DNA of 64,000 nucleotides, from the NCBI RefSeq assembly GCF_007954625.1, contig NZ_CP042420.1, positions 683,501 to 747,500 on the forward strand. Direction: 5' to 3'. Position numbers and translations under genes: made by a program. Each line of letters starts with the position of its first letter. Within the stretch, counting starts at the first letter, position 1. The notes under the pieces were generated by a model. That model was given only the letters and a program-made list of their open reading frames with translations, did not search any database and was not told the DNA's origin. This stretch comes from Leuconostoc lactis (GTDB lineage: Bacteria > Bacillota > Bacilli > Lactobacillales > Lactobacillaceae). Of this stretch, positions 43,562-64,000 are shown one piece after another.

Positions 43562-43730
43562 AAGTTATCAAAGAGGTTGCAACCAACATGAGTAACGTAA
43601 ATGAGTTCGCCAAGAACAGTGATTTTACGCGAAAGGGGCGGTTGCCGAAATTTCTCGCAAGGCAGCGGGAGATTGGGCTAACAACGAATAGTTGTTAGAC
43701 TGTCACGGCGACGTGGTGTGCTTTGAAAAG
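43562..43730 (+). ncRNA. Lysine riboswitch (L box) aptamer upstream of lysP
   Basis: The leader contains the L-box core in order: AGAGGTTGCAACC, ATGAGTAA, GAAAGGGGCGGTTGCCGAA, GGCAGCGGGAGATTGGGC, TTAGACTGTCACGG and a closing P1. P1 is ATCAAAG (43567-43573) with CTTTGA (43721-43726), and the last arm is CACG/CGTG. Lysine binding closes P1 and lowers expression of lysine uptake or synthesis genes. The following gene is a LysP-type permease, in agreement. Confidence 0.93.
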
Positions 43731-43753
43731 TTACGATAAACTAACTTTTTAGA

Positions 43754-56598: not shown

Positions 56599-57999
56599 TT
56601 AAGATAACTTTGAATTTCGTACACCGTAGATAGCGTACCAAACAATACCAGCAATGACCCAGAGGCTAAACAGGAACAATGTGTTGACGGGTAGTTTTGC
56701 GATCAACAATAGGCTAATCACGCCAGCAATGAATGGGAGCACTGGATAACCAGGCACTTTGAAACCGTCATGAGATAAGTCTTTCCGACGACGTAAGATT
56801 AAGATACCAAAGTTAATGAATGTGAAGGCTAACAAGGTACCGGCATTGATCAAACTCGCTAATGTGTTCAGTGGAATTAAACCAGCAAAGATTGATTCAA
56901 CGACAACAGCAACGATTAATGCGTTAACTGGTAAACGTGAACCAGCAGAAATCCTACCTAATGGCTTTGGGAGTAACCCATCACGACCAAATGAGTAAGT
57001 GAGACGTGATGAGGCGTAGACAAGTGCCAAAATGGCTGTAAACATACCAATTAATGCACCGACAATGATGACAACAGAGAATTGCGTTTGGTGAATGGCT
57101 TGTAGGGCAAATGCTGCCGGATCATCCACGCCCAACTTTTTATAGTTCACAATACCAGTCAAAACAACGGCAAACAGTACATAGAGCAGGGCTGAAATCA
57201 AAACAGTCCCGATGATACCACGGGCCATCGTCTTTTGTGGATTTTTAACTTCGGCAGCATGTGCGGCAATGGTATCAAATCCCAAGAAGGCAAAGATGAT
57301 ACTTGCAGTGGCCGCCCAGATACCGTTTAAGCCAAAGACACCAGAATGGAATTCTTTTGGATAAAAAGGTACGTAGTTGGTGTGCTTAATAAAGAAAGAA
57401 CCACCAATGATGAACAACCCTAGGATAGCAACCTTCACAACTACAGCAGCATTTTCGACCTTTTTAGATGTATTCAATCCGCGAGACAAAATTGCGGTGA
57501 CGATTAAGATGATCAAAACGGCAAATAAATTCACCACGCCACCTTCTAGTGGGCCGGCCATCAGGCTTTTTGGCATGTGAATCCCAAAAATTGTGAGGAG
57601 GTTACCGAAATAAGCGGAAAAACCAGTCGCAATGGCTGAAACGGCTAAGAAGTATTCTAAGATAAGTGACCAACCTAGTAACCAGCCGATAATCTCACCA
57701 TAGATGACACTCCCATAAGAATAAGCGGATCCGGCCACCGGCATCGCTGATGAAAATTCAGCAAAGGCCATACCAGATAGGCCAGAGAAGATGGCGGCAA
57801 TCAAAAAGGCGACGGATACAGCCGGGCCAGCGTGTTGCGCAGCTTCGTGGCCAGGTAAGATGAAAATACCTGTTCCGATCACCGTCCCAACACCAAGACC
57901 AATGAGGTCGCGCGTTGTCAATTCGCGCGTCATATGAGAATCTGCATTAATGTAGTTTTGCACAGATTCACGTCTAAATGCTCTTGTGAAGATAGACAT
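56599..57999 (-). CDS. APC-superfamily amino-acid permease (YfnA/cationic amino-acid transporter type)
   Basis: 466 residues with about twelve to thirteen membrane helices. LTTRDLIGLGVGTVIGTGIFILPGHEAA is the APC signature, FSSAMPVAGSAYSYGSVIYGEIIGW lies at helix 3, and FLGFDTIAAHAAEVKNPQKTMARGI is the cationic-transporter motif. The C-terminus FKVPGYPVLPFIAGV is typical of YfnA-like transporters. The transported amino acid is not readable from the sequence. GGGAGA precedes the ATG. Confidence 0.9.
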   Translation of the reverse strand: MSIFTRAFRRESVQNYINADSHMTRELTTRDLIGLGVGTVIGTGIFILPGHEAAQHAGPAVSVAFLIAAIFSGLSGMAFAEFSSAMPVAGSAYSYGSVIYGEIIGWLLGWSLILEYFLAVSAIATGFSAYFGNLLTIFGIHMPKSLMAGPLEGGVVNLFAVLIILIVTAILSRGLNTSKKVENAAVVVKVAILGLFIIGGSFFIKHTNYVPFYPKEFHSGVFGLNGIWAATASIIFAFLGFDTIAAHAAEVKNPQKTMARGIIGTVLISALLYVLFAVVLTGIVNYKKLGVDDPAAFALQAIHQTQFSVVIIVGALIGMFTAILALVYASSRLTYSFGRDGLLPKPLGRISAGSRLPVNALIVAVVVESIFAGLIPLNTLASLINAGTLLAFTFINFGILILRRRKDLSHDGFKVPGYPVLPFIAGVISLLLIAKLPVNTLFLFSLWVIAGIVWYAIYGVRNSKLS

Positions 58000-58126: not shown

Positions 58127-58720
58127 ATGAAAGAAAATAAAGTATTTGTGATTACTGGGGCAACCGGCGTCGGCAAAACAACTATTGCACGATATTTACA
58201 AGATAATTTTCGTATGCCTCGTGTCATTACGCATACAACGCGTCCACCACGCGATCGCGAAGTCGAGGGTGTATCGTATTATTTTGAAGATGAGACGTCA
58301 TTTGAGAAAAATCATTATCTTGAGCGGGTTAATTATGCTGGAGCGCAATATGGCTCATCTTATGAAGGACTGCAACGTGCCTGGGCGAAAAATCCTTATA
58401 TCACGATTGTTTTGGATACGGCGGGGGCCATCACTTATGCGCGCGAACTAGGTGATCAGGCGGTCATTCTCTTTGTGACGGTGACAAGTCCCGATGTCTT
58501 AGTGGAACGGGTGCAAGTACGTGGGGATGATCCAACGGCGATTAAACAACGTGTGGCTTCGCCGGAATTTTTGCGGGACATGGTATTGCCGGATGCCTTA
58601 AAGGGTGTGGCTTACGAATTAGATAATGATGACTGGGCGAAAACAAAGACACAACTGGACTTGTTTGTTCATGATATTATGAATGGGCGTAGCGTGCCTA
58701 AAAATAAGCCGCTCGGTTAA
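58127..58720 (+). CDS. Guanylate kinase-like protein
   Basis: 197 residues with P-loop GATGVGKTT, TTRPPRDREVEGVSYYFEDETSF, and YAGAQYGSSYEGLQRAW, the guanylate-kinase GMP-binding pattern (TTRxxRxxExxGxxYxF, YGTS). The Arg/Lys-rich lid is shorter than in canonical Gmk and the expected EVDxxGAxQ reads VLDTAGAITYA, so this is likely a paralogue. It might phosphorylate GMP or a related substrate. AGGATA precedes ATG. Confidence 0.75.
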   Translation: MKENKVFVITGATGVGKTTIARYLQDNFRMPRVITHTTRPPRDREVEGVSYYFEDETSFEKNHYLERVNYAGAQYGSSYEGLQRAWAKNPYITIVLDTAGAITYARELGDQAVILFVTVTSPDVLVERVQVRGDDPTAIKQRVASPEFLRDMVLPDALKGVAYELDNDDWAKTKTQLDLFVHDIMNGRSVPKNKPLG

Positions 58721-58754: not shown

Positions 58755-58783
58755 TTGACTTTCACAAGGTAAAAGATTATGAT
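58755..58783 (+). promoter_or_regulatory. Promoter of the aromatic aminotransferase operon
   Basis: TTGACT (58755-58760), 17-bp spacer, TATGAT (58778-58783). Start near 58790 gives a leader of about 235 nt. Confidence 0.75.
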
Positions 58784-58814
58784 TATCTCATAAATTAATG
58801 AAGGTTTTTAACAA

Positions 58815-58871
58815 ATGACAGTCAAACACATAGAAAATGCAGAACAGTTTTACTTTTGGTATTTTAGGTAG
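58815..58871 (+). CDS. Aromatic leader peptide (18 aa) for transcription attenuation
   Basis: ATG 58815, preceded by GAAGG at ten bases, encodes MTVKHIENAEQFYFWYFR and stops at TAG 58869-58871. Residues 12-17 are Phe-Tyr-Phe-Trp-Tyr-Phe, six aromatic codons in a row (TTT TAC TTT TGG TAT TTT). Three of these codons form the 5' arm of the first leader hairpin. A ribosome short of any aromatic aminoacyl-tRNA would stall there. The peptide sits before an aromatic-type aminotransferase operon and an intrinsic terminator, as in trp/phe attenuators. Confidence 0.85.
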   Translation: MTVKHIENAEQFYFWYFR

Positions 58872-58993
58872 CCTACCGTATACCAAAAGCATTTTGCATT
58901 GGTATTCGGAGGAGATGGTTCCGAATGCCTGATGAGTTTTGTCATGACTCAAGTTAGCGCACATTCGGAAACAACCGAATGTGCGTTTTTTTT
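58854..58993 (+). promoter_or_regulatory. Six-segment attenuator: competing hairpins and terminator
   Basis: Segments: 1 TTTTGGTAT (58854-58862), 2 ATACCAAAA (58880-58888), 3 TTGGTATTCGGA (58899-58910), 4 TTCCGAATGCC (58919-58929), 5 CATTCGGAA (58962-58970), 6 CCGAATG (58975-58981). Pairs 1:2, 3:4 and 5:6 give termination. Pairs 2:3 (ATACCAA/TTGGTAT) and 4:5 (TTCCGAATG/CATTCGGAA, 9 bp) give antitermination. A ribosome stalled on the aromatic codons hides segment 1 and frees segment 2; one at the stop codon hides part of 2 and favours termination. Confidence 0.85.
58958..58993 (+). terminator. Attenuator terminator upstream of the aminotransferase
   Basis: CGCACATTCGG (58958-58968), loop AAACAA, CCGAATGTGCG (58975-58985), T8. 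The stem is perfect over 11 bp. Confidence 0.93.
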
Positions 58994-59026
58994 GTTAAAC
59001 CGAGTTGTGAATTAGAGGAGAAAATT

Positions 59027-60223
59027 ATGCCACACGCAAAACCAGCCTTGCTATCATCATTTAACCAACGATTGGATCTCGTGAAGCCCAGTGCAATCCG
59101 TGCTTTCGATAATGAAGTCAGTGCCATTCCTGACATTTTAAAATTGACGTTGGGTGAGCCGGATTTTGATGTGCCAGAACATATTAAGCAGGCCGCTGTT
59201 CGTTCAATTGTTGAAAATGATTCACATTATGCGGCGTCTAACGGTACATTGGCTTTACGTCAAGCAGCTGCCGGCTTTTTGGCAGATCGCTATGGGGTTG
59301 ACTATGATGCTGAAAGTGAAATTATTGTCACTGTTGGGGCAACGGAAGCGATTTATACGGTTGTGACATCACTATTAAATCCAGGGGATAAAGTATTGTT
59401 GCCAACGCCAATCTTTCCATTGTATATTCCGGTGACGTTAGTTGGCGGTGGCGAACCAGTATTTATTGATACATCAGCCAATGGATTTGTTTTAAGTCCG
59501 GAAATGTTAAAAGCAGCGATTGCAGAACATGGCGACAGCATTAAGGCGATTGTGTTGAACTTCCCGTCTAATCCAACCGGTGTGACTTATGACGAAGCAG
59601 CCGTTCGCGCTTTGGCTGAGGTGTTGCGTGATACGAATATTGTCGTCATTTCTGATGAAATTTATTCCGAATTAACCTATGAAACAACGCATGTTTCGAT
59701 GGCACAATTCTTACCAGAACAAACTATTTTGCTTAACGGCGTCTCTAAGTCACACGCGATGACGGGTTACCGGATCGGTTTGTTAGCCGGGCCGGCAGAA
59801 TTGGTGGCTAAATTGGGTTTGATTCACCAATTCACGATTACGACACCGACGAACTCAGCGATGGCAGCGGCAGCCGAAGCGTTAGGCACACCAGCCGGAA
59901 AAGCAGATACATTGGCAATGAAGGCCGAATATCAAGCGCGCCGTGACTATGTTTACCAAACGATGACTGACTTAGGGTTTGATATACCAAAACCAGCGGG
60001 TGCTTTCTATATTTTTGCTAAGATTCCAGCTGATTTACCGCAAGATGATGTAGCGTTTGCCCGTGACTTAGCGCAAAAAAACAAGCTCGCGGTTATTCCT
60101 GGTTCAGCTTTTGGCCCAGGTGGCGAAGGGTACGTACGATTGAGTTATGCCGCATCAATGGCAACATTGGAAGAAGCGATGGCGCGCTTAACAGCATATA
60201 TCGAGGCGAATCGCCATGCCTAA
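59027..60223 (+). CDS. Aminotransferase class I, probable aromatic amino-acid aminotransferase (AraT/PatA-like)
   Basis: 398 residues of fold-type I PLP enzyme: LTLGEPDFDVPEHI, HYAASNGTLALRQAAAGF, VGATEAIYTVVTSLL, NFPSNPTGVTYDE, ISDEIYSELTY, and the PLP lysine in GVSKSHAMTGYRIG; the substrate-carboxylate Arg is in EGYVRLSYA. It exchanges amino groups between amino acids and 2-oxo acids. The aromatic attenuator upstream points to Phe/Tyr/Trp. ATG 59027 follows AGAGGAG; the frame is open to 58979 inside the terminator. It overlaps the next gene by eight bases. Confidence 0.9.
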   Translation: MPHAKPALLSSFNQRLDLVKPSAIRAFDNEVSAIPDILKLTLGEPDFDVPEHIKQAAVRSIVENDSHYAASNGTLALRQAAAGFLADRYGVDYDAESEIIVTVGATEAIYTVVTSLLNPGDKVLLPTPIFPLYIPVTLVGGGEPVFIDTSANGFVLSPEMLKAAIAEHGDSIKAIVLNFPSNPTGVTYDEAAVRALAEVLRDTNIVVISDEIYSELTYETTHVSMAQFLPEQTILLNGVSKSHAMTGYRIGLLAGPAELVAKLGLIHQFTITTPTNSAMAAAAEALGTPAGKADTLAMKAEYQARRDYVYQTMTDLGFDIPKPAGAFYIFAKIPADLPQDDVAFARDLAQKNKLAVIPGSAFGPGGEGYVRLSYAASMATLEEAMARLTAYIEANRHA

Positions 60224-61208
60224 AATTTTAATGACTAGCGTACGTGAAGATGAAGAGACGGCTATTGCTGCCTATGCGCAACAACACCATGTTGAGATTG
60301 ATATTTCACGTGATGAATTGCACCCAGATAAACTACCGGATTTGCGTCAATATGATGGTTTGATTGTGCAACAAACTGCTAAAATCGGTGGGGATTCGGC
60401 ATTCTACCGCACATTAGCACAACAGGGCTTGCAACAAATTACGACGCGAACAGCTGGCTATGACATGATCGAAGTGGCGTTAGCAAAAGAAGCTGGCTTA
60501 AAAGTCACCAATGTACCGGCCTATTCACCACGATCAGTGGCTGAAATGGCATTGATGCAAATTTTCCGGTTATTGCGCCGAACATGGGCTTTTGATCAGC
60601 GTGTTGCGCAACATGATTTTCGGTGGGGCGGCTTACAAGCAAGAGAAATTCATACAGTGACGGTAGGTATTATTGGAGCTGGCCGGATTGGGAGTACCTT
60701 GGCGCAATTATTACATGCACTTGGTGCACGTGTGTTGGGTTATGATATTAATCCCCAACCAGCCTACGAGTCATTTCTGACTTATGTCGACAAAGAGACG
60801 TTATTGGCTGAGAGTGATATTGTGAGTTTGCATGTTGATTTAAATCCATCATCAGTTGGCTTGCTGAGTGCAACGGACTTTGAACGTATGCCATCACATG
60901 CAGGTTTAGTTAATGCATCGCGTGGGCCAGTTGTTAATACGGATGATTTACTTACGGCACTGATGAGTGGTGAGATCGAAGCTGCAGCACTCGACACAGT
61001 TGAAGGTGAATCGGCGATATTTAATCATGACTTACGGCAACAGGGTGTAGCGGATCAACGTATTCAACAGTTACTTGATTTGCCAAATGTCATCATGACA
61101 CCCCATGTGGCGTTTTATACGAACCTTGCCGTACAAAACATGATTGATATTGCATTGGATGATGTTTTATTGATCATTCAAGGCCAACCAGCATTACATG
61201 AAATTTAA
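60216..61208 (+). CDS. D-isomer-specific 2-hydroxyacid dehydrogenase
   Basis: 330 residues: NAD fold with VGIIGAGRIGSTLAQLLHALGARVLGYD (about 148-175), the catalytic Arg in LVNASRGPVVNTDDLL, Glu in LDTVEGESA and His in MTPHVAFYT. It resembles D-lactate dehydrogenases that also take phenylpyruvate and branched 2-oxo acids. With the aminotransferase it links aromatic amino acids, their 2-oxo acids and D-2-hydroxy acids such as D-phenyllactate. Its ATG lies eight bases before the aminotransferase stop. Confidence 0.9.
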   Translation: MPKILMTSVREDEETAIAAYAQQHHVEIDISRDELHPDKLPDLRQYDGLIVQQTAKIGGDSAFYRTLAQQGLQQITTRTAGYDMIEVALAKEAGLKVTNVPAYSPRSVAEMALMQIFRLLRRTWAFDQRVAQHDFRWGGLQAREIHTVTVGIIGAGRIGSTLAQLLHALGARVLGYDINPQPAYESFLTYVDKETLLAESDIVSLHVDLNPSSVGLLSATDFERMPSHAGLVNASRGPVVNTDDLLTALMSGEIEAAALDTVEGESAIFNHDLRQQGVADQRIQQLLDLPNVIMTPHVAFYTNLAVQNMIDIALDDVLLIIQGQPALHEI

Positions 61209-61271
61209 AAAGCGCTTTTGCGCGTACATATATAGGTAACTATTGCAATGCGTGATAACGGGAGAAAAGAA

Positions 61272-62327
61272 ATGAAGTCAAGTGTCGGTCGTGGCCAACA
61301 AATCAAGCAATTTATCGTTGATGTGCTAAATGGGACAAGTTTAGGGATTGTTATTACCCTGATTCCAAGTGCGCTAGTGAGTCAACTCTTGTTGCTCTTT
61401 CCTAATAGCGTGATTGCAGCAAATATTAATTTTATGACGACGTTGATTCAAAGTACGTTACCGCTTGTTGCTGGCTTTGCGGTGGGACATCTATTGAAAT
61501 TATCCACGATTGACGCTGGCGCGATTGCTTTGGCAACGTTTGTGTCCTCGGGTGTTGTGACGAAAACAGCTACGGGGATGATGATTAGTGGGACTGGGGT
61601 TATTTTAAACATTGTTTTGATTACGCTGGTTGCGGCAATTTTAGTAAAGTTGACAACAACTGTGTTTGGTCATTTGAAGATGTTACTGCAACCGTTGATC
61701 GTTGTTTTGTTGGCGGGCGGATTGGGCTTGGTGACATTAGCGCCATTAAGACAAGTGCAGGTTCTGATGGGAGCAGCGGTTTCAGCAGCTACCCACTTGA
61801 CGCCATTGTTGATGGGGGCTTTGCTTGGTATGGCCTTTGCCTTCCTTGTGGTGTCGCCGTTATCATCTGTCGGCATTGCAATGGCGATTAATTTATCCGG
61901 CGTTGGGTCTGGGGCGGCTAATGCGGGTATTGTTGTCGCAAGCTTTACCTTAGCGGCAATGGGCGCTAGTGTGAATCCTATTGGTGGTACTTTGGCACAT
62001 TTTATTGGTTCGCCAAAAATTCAGATGGCCAATATGCTCTTGAAGCCAAAACTATTTATCCCAACAACGATTGGCGCGGGTATTATGGGTATTTTGGCAA
62101 CGGTATTTGATGTCAAGGGGACGCCGTTTTCTGCTGGTTTTGGTTTTTCAGGCTTAATTGGACCGATGACGGCTTATGGGTTGTCTAATCAATCGACAAA
62201 AGCAGTATTGGATATTGTACTGGTTTTTGTCGTGTTACCTTGTGTATTAGCTATGACATTAAAGTGGTTATTTATCAAAAAATGGCATTTGATTAAACCG
62301 GAAGATCTTAAATTGACGTTGCAATAA
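61272..62327 (+). CDS. Membrane transporter, PTS EIIC-like family (PF13303 type)
   Basis: 351 residues with about ten membrane helices and repeated Gly-rich segments (VSPLSSVGIAMAINLSGVGSGAANAGIVVASFTLAAMGASVNPIGGTLAHF ... GFGFSGLIGPMTAYGL), the pattern of the stand-alone 'PTS_EIIC_2' family. No EIIA or EIIB is nearby, so phosphotransferase coupling is doubtful. ATG 61272 follows GGGAG by seven bases; the frame begins at 61248. As last gene of the aromatic operon it may carry an aromatic 2-oxo or 2-hydroxy acid, which is inference. No clear terminator follows. Confidence 0.75.
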   Translation: MKSSVGRGQQIKQFIVDVLNGTSLGIVITLIPSALVSQLLLLFPNSVIAANINFMTTLIQSTLPLVAGFAVGHLLKLSTIDAGAIALATFVSSGVVTKTATGMMISGTGVILNIVLITLVAAILVKLTTTVFGHLKMLLQPLIVVLLAGGLGLVTLAPLRQVQVLMGAAVSAATHLTPLLMGALLGMAFAFLVVSPLSSVGIAMAINLSGVGSGAANAGIVVASFTLAAMGASVNPIGGTLAHFIGSPKIQMANMLLKPKLFIPTTIGAGIMGILATVFDVKGTPFSAGFGFSGLIGPMTAYGLSNQSTKAVLDIVLVFVVLPCVLAMTLKWLFIKKWHLIKPEDLKLTLQ

Positions 62328-62690: not shown

Positions 62691-62902
62691 AATATAGTTG
62701 TCTCAGCGACAACAAGTAGCACATTGAAAACTGAACAAAACTTTGAACAAACGAATCTGTTACTAGTTATTAGCAGTAATAACTGAAACAAATTTGCGAA
62801 GTCAATTCGTAACAAACAATAAACGGATAGTCGTTATAGAGATATAGCAATTAGTCAGTTTAATCGAAGAGTACATCTTCAAACGATGAATTTAATTCAT
62901 TT

Positions 62903-64000
<1,098 letters not shown>

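Follow-up and report, generated by a model that had tools for sequence, protein, structure and literature searches.

A probable aromatic leader-peptide attenuator before an aminotransferase operon of Leuconostoc lactis and its relatives in the Lactobacillales

What controls the aminotransferase operon found in the 64,000-nucleotide stretch of Leuconostoc lactis DNA analysed here (the window), and what part does the short open reading frame (ORF) in front of it play? This ORF is situated between a guanylate-kinase-like gene (58127-58720) and the aminotransferase gene (59027-60223), and it ends in F-Y-F-W-Y-F-R-stop, the stop being TAG at 58869-58871. According to our analysis, it very probably belongs to a ribosome-mediated transcription attenuator whose signal is the charging state of tRNA-Phe, tRNA-Tyr, and, in this copy, also tRNA-Trp. 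The original prediction had placed six aromatic codons at 58848-58865, followed by a TAG at 58869, in front of two mutually exclusive sets of RNA pairings. All the coordinates tested are correct, and the segments and helices of both sets could be located at the claimed lengths, i.e., 7 bp for helix 2:3 (58880-58886 with 58899-58905), 9 bp for helix 4:5 (58919-58927 with 58962-58970), and 11 bp for the terminator helix 5:6 with its T8 tract. The locus comprises the following features.

58755..58783, + strand: promoter-like site TTGACT-17-TATGAT (10 of 12 matches, a consensus match only)
58800..58804, + strand: probable Shine-Dalgarno sequence GAAGG of the leader ORF (sequence)
58815..58871, + strand: leader peptide ORF MTVKHIENAEQFYFWYFR, 18 codons (counterpart in 18 of 19 Leuconostoc genomes)
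58848..58865, + strand: six consecutive aromatic control codons F-Y-F-W-Y-F (sequence, conservation)
58853..58862, + strand: segment 1, within the control codons, pairing with segment 2 (alignment, folding)
58880..58889, + strand: segment 2, pairing with segment 1 or, through 58880-58886, with segment 3 (alignment, folding)
58899..58910, + strand: segment 3, of which 58901-58910 pairs with segment 4 and 58899-58905 with segment 2 (alignment, folding)
58919..58929, + strand: segment 4, of which 58920-58929 pairs with segment 3 and 58919-58927 with segment 5, as the antiterminator (alignment, folding)
58958..58970, + strand: segment 5, of which 58958-58968 is the 5' arm of the terminator and 58962-58970 pairs with segment 4 (alignment, folding)
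58975..58993, + strand: segment 6, the 3' arm of the terminator (58975-58985), and the T8 tract (58986-58993) (sequence, folding, terminator scan)
59027..60223, + strand: aminotransferase class I/II (best NCBIfam model PRK07309, 560.8 bits, below the cut-off of 576)
60216..61208, + strand: D-2-hydroxyacid dehydrogenase (D-lactate/D-2-hydroxyacid group), overlapping the aminotransferase gene by 8 bases
61248..62327, + strand: PTS_EIIC_2 (PF13303) membrane protein, probably the third gene of the operon

A ATTATCTCAT-like stretch follows the promoter-like site in many Leuconostoc rows, and AAGG, GAGG, or AGG occupies the Shine-Dalgarno position in the compared leader-bearing rows. The terminator scan returned a site at 58956-58987. 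Since promoter-like sites numbered 18, versus 11.3 in shuffles, and terminator-like sites 3, versus 4.9 in shuffles, the two scans taken alone are weak evidence for leader signals. The RNA from 58790 to 59000 folds with a z score of -6.43, none of 200 shuffles being as good.

Two of the features by which an attenuator is recognized, namely, a short ORF with a block of pathway codons and conserved, mutually exclusive terminator and antiterminator helices, were found together at this locus. We infer a transcription start ahead of the leader ORF, translation of this ORF, and tRNA charging, not the free amino acid, as the signal. With charged tRNAs, the ribosome would pass the six aromatic codons and reach the stop. 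With the ribosome at the stop or absent, helix 3:4 would form, accompanied by 1:2 once the ribosome has left, segment 5 would be free for segment 6, and transcription would end at the T tract. When aromatic tRNAs are short, the ribosome would stall on the control codons and cover segment 1, so that segment 2 would pair with segment 3, and segment 4, left free, would capture segment 5 before the terminator could form. Readthrough would then lead to transcription of the aminotransferase, hydroxyacid dehydrogenase, and PTS_EIIC_2 genes, the putative extent of the operon.

Partial transcripts were folded with the ribosome taken to cover at most 12 bases beyond the first base of its A site. When the polymerase has passed segment 4, the computed pairing is 1.00 for 3:4 and 0.00 for 2:3 without a ribosome, and a ribosome at the stop likewise gives 1.00 for 3:4. 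Placing the A site at 58848, 58851, or 58857 (aromatic codons 1, 2, and 4) brings 2:3 to 0.63, 0.73, and 0.89, respectively, and when it stands at 58854, 58860, or 58863 (aromatic codons 3, 5, and 6), 3:4 is favoured (0.85, 0.76, and 0.88). Once the polymerase is past segment 5, stalls on the aromatic codons give 0.93 for 2:3, 0.74 for 4:5, and 0.00 for 3:4; without a ribosome, 3:4 stands at 0.59-0.66, and the ribosome at the stop favours 4:5 (0.72). Equilibrium folding does not separate all ribosome states. In the full-length RNA the terminator has a value of at least 0.97 in every state, stalled or not, and the switch must therefore be kinetic rather than an equilibrium. Kinetic switching is usual for attenuators, and as far as these computed structures go, the anatomy supports a kinetic switch as in the known ones.

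All 19 Leuconostoc genomes searched contain the aminotransferase, and in 18 of them the 18-codon leader ORF starts 196-226 bases upstream of it (the length of 18 residues was recounted in 17 leaders, and L018 was read directly). The leaders end in FYFWYF, FYFKYF, YYFKYF, or FYFWCF, followed by one residue, and the residues N-terminal to the aromatic block are variable. A six-codon block of the same kind in the same place in 18 of 19 genomes puts the leader beyond chance. The exception is L012, where the leader has been lost and the control codons are gone, with remnants that can still be aligned. Beyond Leuconostoc, leaders with FYYFWYFA and FNFWYFR were found in L. fallax, which the database used assigns to another genus, and at L034, respectively; L035, L036, and L042, loci with the aminotransferase, have no such leader upstream. 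No FYFWYF-type leader was detected upstream of the more distant paralogous aminotransferases at L002, L003, and L027 to L032. At L027 to L032, short ORFs with FFF runs precede the distant paralogue, and these are not the hexapeptide.

Alignment A1 consists of 19 leaders, namely, 17 of the 18 from Leuconostoc (L018, which is like L017, was omitted) together with L033 and L034; it includes near-copy rows (L001/L009 and L021 to L023), and the terminator of L033 is misaligned in it. In the terminating helices 1:2, 3:4, and 5:6, 94.6% of the cells are paired, and 12 of 31 pairs show changes on both sides, versus 4.5 in shuffles (0 of 500 as high). In the antiterminating helices 2:3 and 4:5, taken with seven pairs each, 92.9% of the cells are paired; doubly changed cells number 14, versus 3.9 in shuffles (0 of 500), and changes on both sides occur in 5 of 14 pairs, versus 2.4 in shuffles (12 of 500 as high). 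The number of additional pair types in helices 2:3 and 4:5 does not exceed that in shuffles (13 versus 13.2). The six leaders with Lys in place of Trp (L021 to L026) carry A-U-A in columns 16, 44, and 59, which lie in the codon, segment 2, and segment 3, respectively, where U-A-U stands elsewhere. With the change from UGG to AAG, segments 1, 2, and 3 have thus changed jointly and both 1:2 and 2:3 are kept. This may be a single event, since some of these rows are near copies. At L034, columns 15, 45, and 58 carry C-G-C instead of U-A-U, with both helices kept and pair 44-59 lost. In Leuconostoc, therefore, the expectation that an alignment of orthologous leaders would retain the aromatic run (18 of 19) and both pairing sets, conserved and covarying, was borne out, and the attenuator anatomy is supported by conservation, by three-way covariation, and by the folding of partial transcripts.

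The family, represented by 397 genomes, was searched with a covariance model built from A1 (E ≤ 0.01 per genome), and 95 genomes from 17 of 40 genera gave a match. Sixty-eight matches fall outside Leuconostoc (g1) and genus g38; 60 of these were newly examined, six were already covered, and those in G152 and G245 were left out. An aromatic leader ORF is present at 54 of the 60 and absent at L147, L176, L177, L182, L184, and L188, which look like chance matches; L184 is near a permease gene. With gene families assigned through Pfam and NCBIfam on examples, the genes behind the 54 leaders are aminotransferase homologues (about 50 to 67% identity) in 30, homologues of the amino acid permease of the window in 10, PTS_EIIC_2 homologues in seven, and TrpX-like lipoproteins in four. 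L150 has an aminotransferase match over 202 residues and a dehydrogenase, and the remaining two leaders stand at a contig end (L155) and before none of these genes (L181). At L150 (G387), the partial aminotransferase match follows an intact-looking leader, and the gene may be broken.

The exact FYFWYF DNA pattern, run on the same 397 genomes, occurs at 55 places in 50 genomes, and its reversed version at 10; 30 of the pattern loci were read, 21 being leaders and nine not. In genus g38, MSLPLN...SFYFWYFR-type peptides precede the aminotransferase in 21 loci read among the exact-pattern matches, and there the leader RNA is longer and laid out differently, with the complement of the codons further downstream. 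In the order-wide search, the A1 model matched in 37 of 325 genomes. Twenty-two loci from outside the family were read (L196 and L199 to L219), and an aromatic leader, in most cases a [YF]YFSYFR-type peptide, was found at 19 of them, preceding a TrpX-like gene in 12, aroE in five, an aminotransferase in one (L200), and another solute-binding protein in one (L203); L205, L208, and L211 have no aromatic leader. A second copy was not found in the own genome. Apart from a partial match to the same terminator on the reverse strand (E 0.0036), the A1 model gives only matches at E 1.07 and 9.3 there, and these lack an aromatic leader.

The family-wide folding test, the test of pairing with the own RNA, and the codon survey were run without L147, L176, L177, L182, L184, and L188 (no leader), L155 and L181 (no gene), L143, L144, L146, L168, and L171 (like rows kept), L018, L037, and L048 (copies of kept loci), and the order-search loci L196 to L219. 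Among the 92 leaders folded, a terminator was found in 86 and not in six; that of L180 looks misplaced. A stall at the first aromatic codon sequesters the terminator arm more than in the free RNA, by over 0.2, in 32 leaders and less in eight, the remaining 46 showing neither, and in the same set a stall at the last aromatic codon sequesters it more than the ribosome at the stop does in 19 and less in two. Across genera, 44 of 49 distinct codon blocks pair more strongly with the RNA downstream of them than, on average, with the corresponding RNA of other loci; the exceptions (L150, L165, L183, L038, and L043) all have peptides continuing beyond the block. In an 8-base pairing test against swapped codons, the fourth codon was better in 16, equal in 81, and worse in eight of 105, an outcome to which no weight is given here.

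The codon survey covered 121 loci, 92 of them belonging to the family and 29 to RF02863; grouping by class and last codons leaves 86 distinct leaders. Phe occupies position 6 in 85 of these (TTT in 53, TTC in 32), and since both Phe codons are used, it is the amino acid that is kept and not the letters. Position 5 is Tyr or Phe in 84, position 3 is Phe in 78, position 2 is Tyr in 72, and position 1 is Phe or Tyr in 74. Position 4 is variable, with Trp in 53, Ser in 17, Thr in six, Lys in five, Gly in three, and Arg in two. When all loci are counted, Trp occupies position 4 before 65 of 73 aminotransferases (21 of them from g38), five of seven PTS_EIIC_2 genes, one of eight permeases, none of 20 TrpX-like genes, and none of 13 aroE genes; three TrpX-like peptides contain a Trp at another place, close to a TTG which the automatic choice of start codon preferred to an ATG further downstream. 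The original prediction that one peptide senses Phe, Tyr, and Trp together thus applies to this copy at most and fails as a general statement, since only 53 of the 86 distinct leaders have Trp at position 4. Judged by its codons, the sensor seems best called a Phe/Tyr sensor with optional Trp.

A different reading of the same peptide is nascent-peptide arrest, in which F-Y-F-x-Y-F in the exit tunnel would stall the ribosome on a free aromatic amino acid or metabolite and throw the same RNA switch. Nascent-peptide stalling with Trp is known from TnaC. Under a signal of abundant amino acid, the operon would have a catabolic role, with the aminotransferase and the hydroxyacid dehydrogenase making phenyllactate, and both enzymes could indeed act in the catabolic direction. 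The order F-Y-F-x-Y-F is nearly constant over many genera, beyond what a count of codons alone requires, and the block mostly stands directly before one last residue and the stop. However, the pairing of segments 1 and 2 can explain the order of residues, position 4 varies among W, K, S, T, G, and R, the N-terminus is not conserved, and the tails after the block range from one to ten residues. Leaders before aroE and probable uptake transporters, moreover, make little sense if they are induced by plenty. We therefore consider arrest improbable. The genes behind the leaders of the relatives are biosynthetic (aroE, aminotransferase) or uptake-like, which fits attenuation with induction by shortage.

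The element has a counterpart in Rfam, where the Enterococcus relatives are filed as "Gene; sRNA" under RF02863 (sRNA_2410). The window element itself gives no match to this family at E ≤ 10, thus staying below the threshold of 61 bits, and no match was obtained in L100, L108, and L119 (E ≤ 1), in the own genome (G000), or in L133, L136, and L153. Twelve relatives exceed the threshold (L196, L214, L151, L209, L219, L212, L215, L216, L201, L167, L154, and L203), with a highest score of 122.6 bits, and six lie below it (L199, L218, L213, L202, L204, and L206). RF02863 matched in 107 of 198 order genomes searched, in 48 above the cut-off. Among the best 30 loci by score (L220 to L249, a selected set rather than a random sample), a leader ORF that closes with an aromatic block is present in 29 and was not found in L247; the stop lies about 15 bases inside the match in 27 loci and nine bases later in two, and the downstream genes are homologues of TrpX-like proteins (16) or of aroE (14). 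In alignment A3, the codon-bearing helix is changed on both sides in nine of ten pairs, a count which leans towards the model because A3 was fitted to it. RF02863 resembles the window element in its aromatic block, in codons pairing downstream, and in its terminator; it differs in being filed as an sRNA gene, in a match that starts inside the last codons of the ORF, and in a block with usually Ser instead of Trp.

In Enterococcus faecium, sRNA_2410 is described as a discrete 195-nt RNA by RNA-seq and as two transcripts by Northern blot, in a report whose main text does not contain the words leader or attenuat- (PMC5593968); "2410", "attenuat", and "aromatic" are likewise absent from the main texts of two further E. 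faecalis/E. faecium RNA studies (PMC7724050, PMC10117718). This filing and this discrete RNA would suit a trans-acting small RNA or a protein-binding leader with an incidental ORF. We regard this as highly improbable, given the aromatic-block ORF at 29 of the best 30 RF02863 loci, the aroE or TrpX-like genes behind all 30, and the changes on both sides of the codon-bearing helix in A3; a terminated leader, besides, would itself look like a short RNA. The RNA named sRNA_2410 is probably the leader RNA that attenuators of this kind release on termination.

The attenuator, which the original prediction had tied to the aminotransferase operon, extends beyond it: leaders of the same kind stand before other aromatic genes in Lactobacillales, RF02863 being one branch of them. 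On balance, we favour the view that the Lactobacillales share one old Phe/Tyr leader-peptide attenuator over many operons (aroE, aminotransferase with hydroxyacid dehydrogenase, APC permease, TrpX-like ABC transporter, and PF13303 PTS_EIIC_2), that sRNA_2410 is its terminated product, and that the leader codons predict substrates. The leaders of the different genera may all form one family by descent, or some may be convergent. If the shared attenuator is real, TrpX-like proteins whose leaders lack Trp at position 4 would carry Phe/Tyr rather than Trp, and the PF13303 proteins behind such leaders would move an aromatic compound. It would bring a leader-peptide regulon with mixed aromatic codons to bacteria where this role is ascribed to T-boxes, supply a mechanism for an RNA family whose only listing is as an sRNA, and yield substrate predictions for two transporter families as well as testable predictions about the metabolism of aromatic flavours and of phenyllactate in food bacteria.

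Among the known systems, the enterobacterial his leader attenuator, with six pairing segments, is the closest in layout, since it shares the run of control codons inside segment 1 and the alternation of 1:2, 3:4, and 5:6 with 2:3 and 4:5. The window element differs from it in its mixed Phe/Tyr/Trp codons, in its occurrence in Lactobacillales, and in the operons concerned, and it has no Rfam match to any enterobacterial his-type leader. The enterobacterial pheA and trp leaders share aromatic control codons and an intrinsic terminator with the window element, but they respond to one amino acid each, have four segments, and precede other genes. In TRAP attenuators, TRAP binds a series of GAG/UAG triplets. 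No T-box (RF00230) was found at this locus (C1:742342-742490), and the own genome has 18 T-box matches at E ≤ 0.001, two of them above the cut-off. RF01743, the Leu/phe leader of Lactococcus lactis, is a leader-peptide element likewise belonging to Lactobacillales and named for Leu and Phe; the window gives no match to it at E ≤ 10. It is given as a table entry in PMC2864571.

Leader peptides of his genes in bacilli and other Firmicutes have already been published (PMC2965389, PMC9413887), but they have histidine codons and concern his and hisS genes; the main text of PMC2965389 does not contain the word "aromatic", and a listing in PMC9413887 has Leuconostoc his genes under T-boxes. The trpB motif (RF04312) shares with the window element a hairpin followed by a terminator, and PMC11109978 presents it as a riboswitch candidate for which a classic attenuator was not ruled out, located most often before an amino acid ABC transporter. 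Segments 3 to 6 of the window score 31.4 bits against it, below the threshold of 59, and relatives score up to 47.3 bits. With strict filters, 199 phylum genomes yielded two weak matches and none above the cut-off, and the Lactococcus lactis control gave a further weak one; on these weak matches RF04312 was not adopted as the parent family. The motifs FYFWYF, YFSYFR, YFWFFR, YFKYFG, and YFWYFR occur in no paper searched, subscription papers lying outside the search, and the regulon is described in none of them, although leader-peptide attenuation itself is known.

That the locus is a constitutive array of terminator hairpins with chance aromatic codons is extremely improbable: AT-rich DNA does yield many TTT and TAT codons, and the 10 reversed matches and nine nonleaders of the pattern search fit such a background, but conservation over genera, covariation in both helix sets, and the retention of Phe and Tyr by position with both synonymous codons weigh heavily against it.

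The aminotransferase is 99% identical to its counterpart in L. lactis KCTC 3528, and its best relatives in the PDB are 4my5, a putative amino acid aminotransferase, and 1dju, an aromatic aminotransferase. The host genome has a match to prephenate dehydrogenase and none to prephenate dehydratase, so that de novo synthesis of Phe by the usual route is doubtful. Tyr synthesis in this host would need an aminotransferase of this kind; with the dehydrogenase and without the dehydratase, the enzyme could complete the route to Tyr but could hardly do the same for Phe made de novo, which agrees imperfectly with the sensing of Phe. At the 18 leader-bearing Leuconostoc loci, a PTS_EIIC_2 match lies downstream in all 18 and the dehydrogenase in 11; at the other seven (L013 to L019), the dehydrogenase was not found in the downstream stretch examined, and the PTS_EIIC_2 gene follows there. 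A link to phenyllactate through the D-2-hydroxyacid dehydrogenase encoded by the second gene is plausible from the gene content.

PF13303 PTS_EIIC_2 proteins also stand alone behind aromatic leaders at seven loci (e.g., L133:542-1576 and L183:470-1504), and these solo loci together with the gene's place in the present operon suggest that such proteins may move an aromatic compound. The TrpX-like substrate-binding proteins at L220 and L151 (345 and 339 bits, the TrpX cut-off being 390) and at similar loci stand behind Phe/Tyr leaders without Trp at position 4, and they may carry Phe/Tyr. Beside the operon, an amino acid permease is encoded at 56599-57999 on the minus strand, with BcaP as its nearest model, below cut-off. 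It has just 127 bases before the next gene; at 10 loci, its homologues (about 50% identity) are each preceded by a separate aromatic leader, which is YFTYFG-like in most cases. Elsewhere in the window, a lysine riboswitch was identified at 43563-43731 (115.6 bits), and a 16S rRNA gene starts at the window's end (62902-64000).
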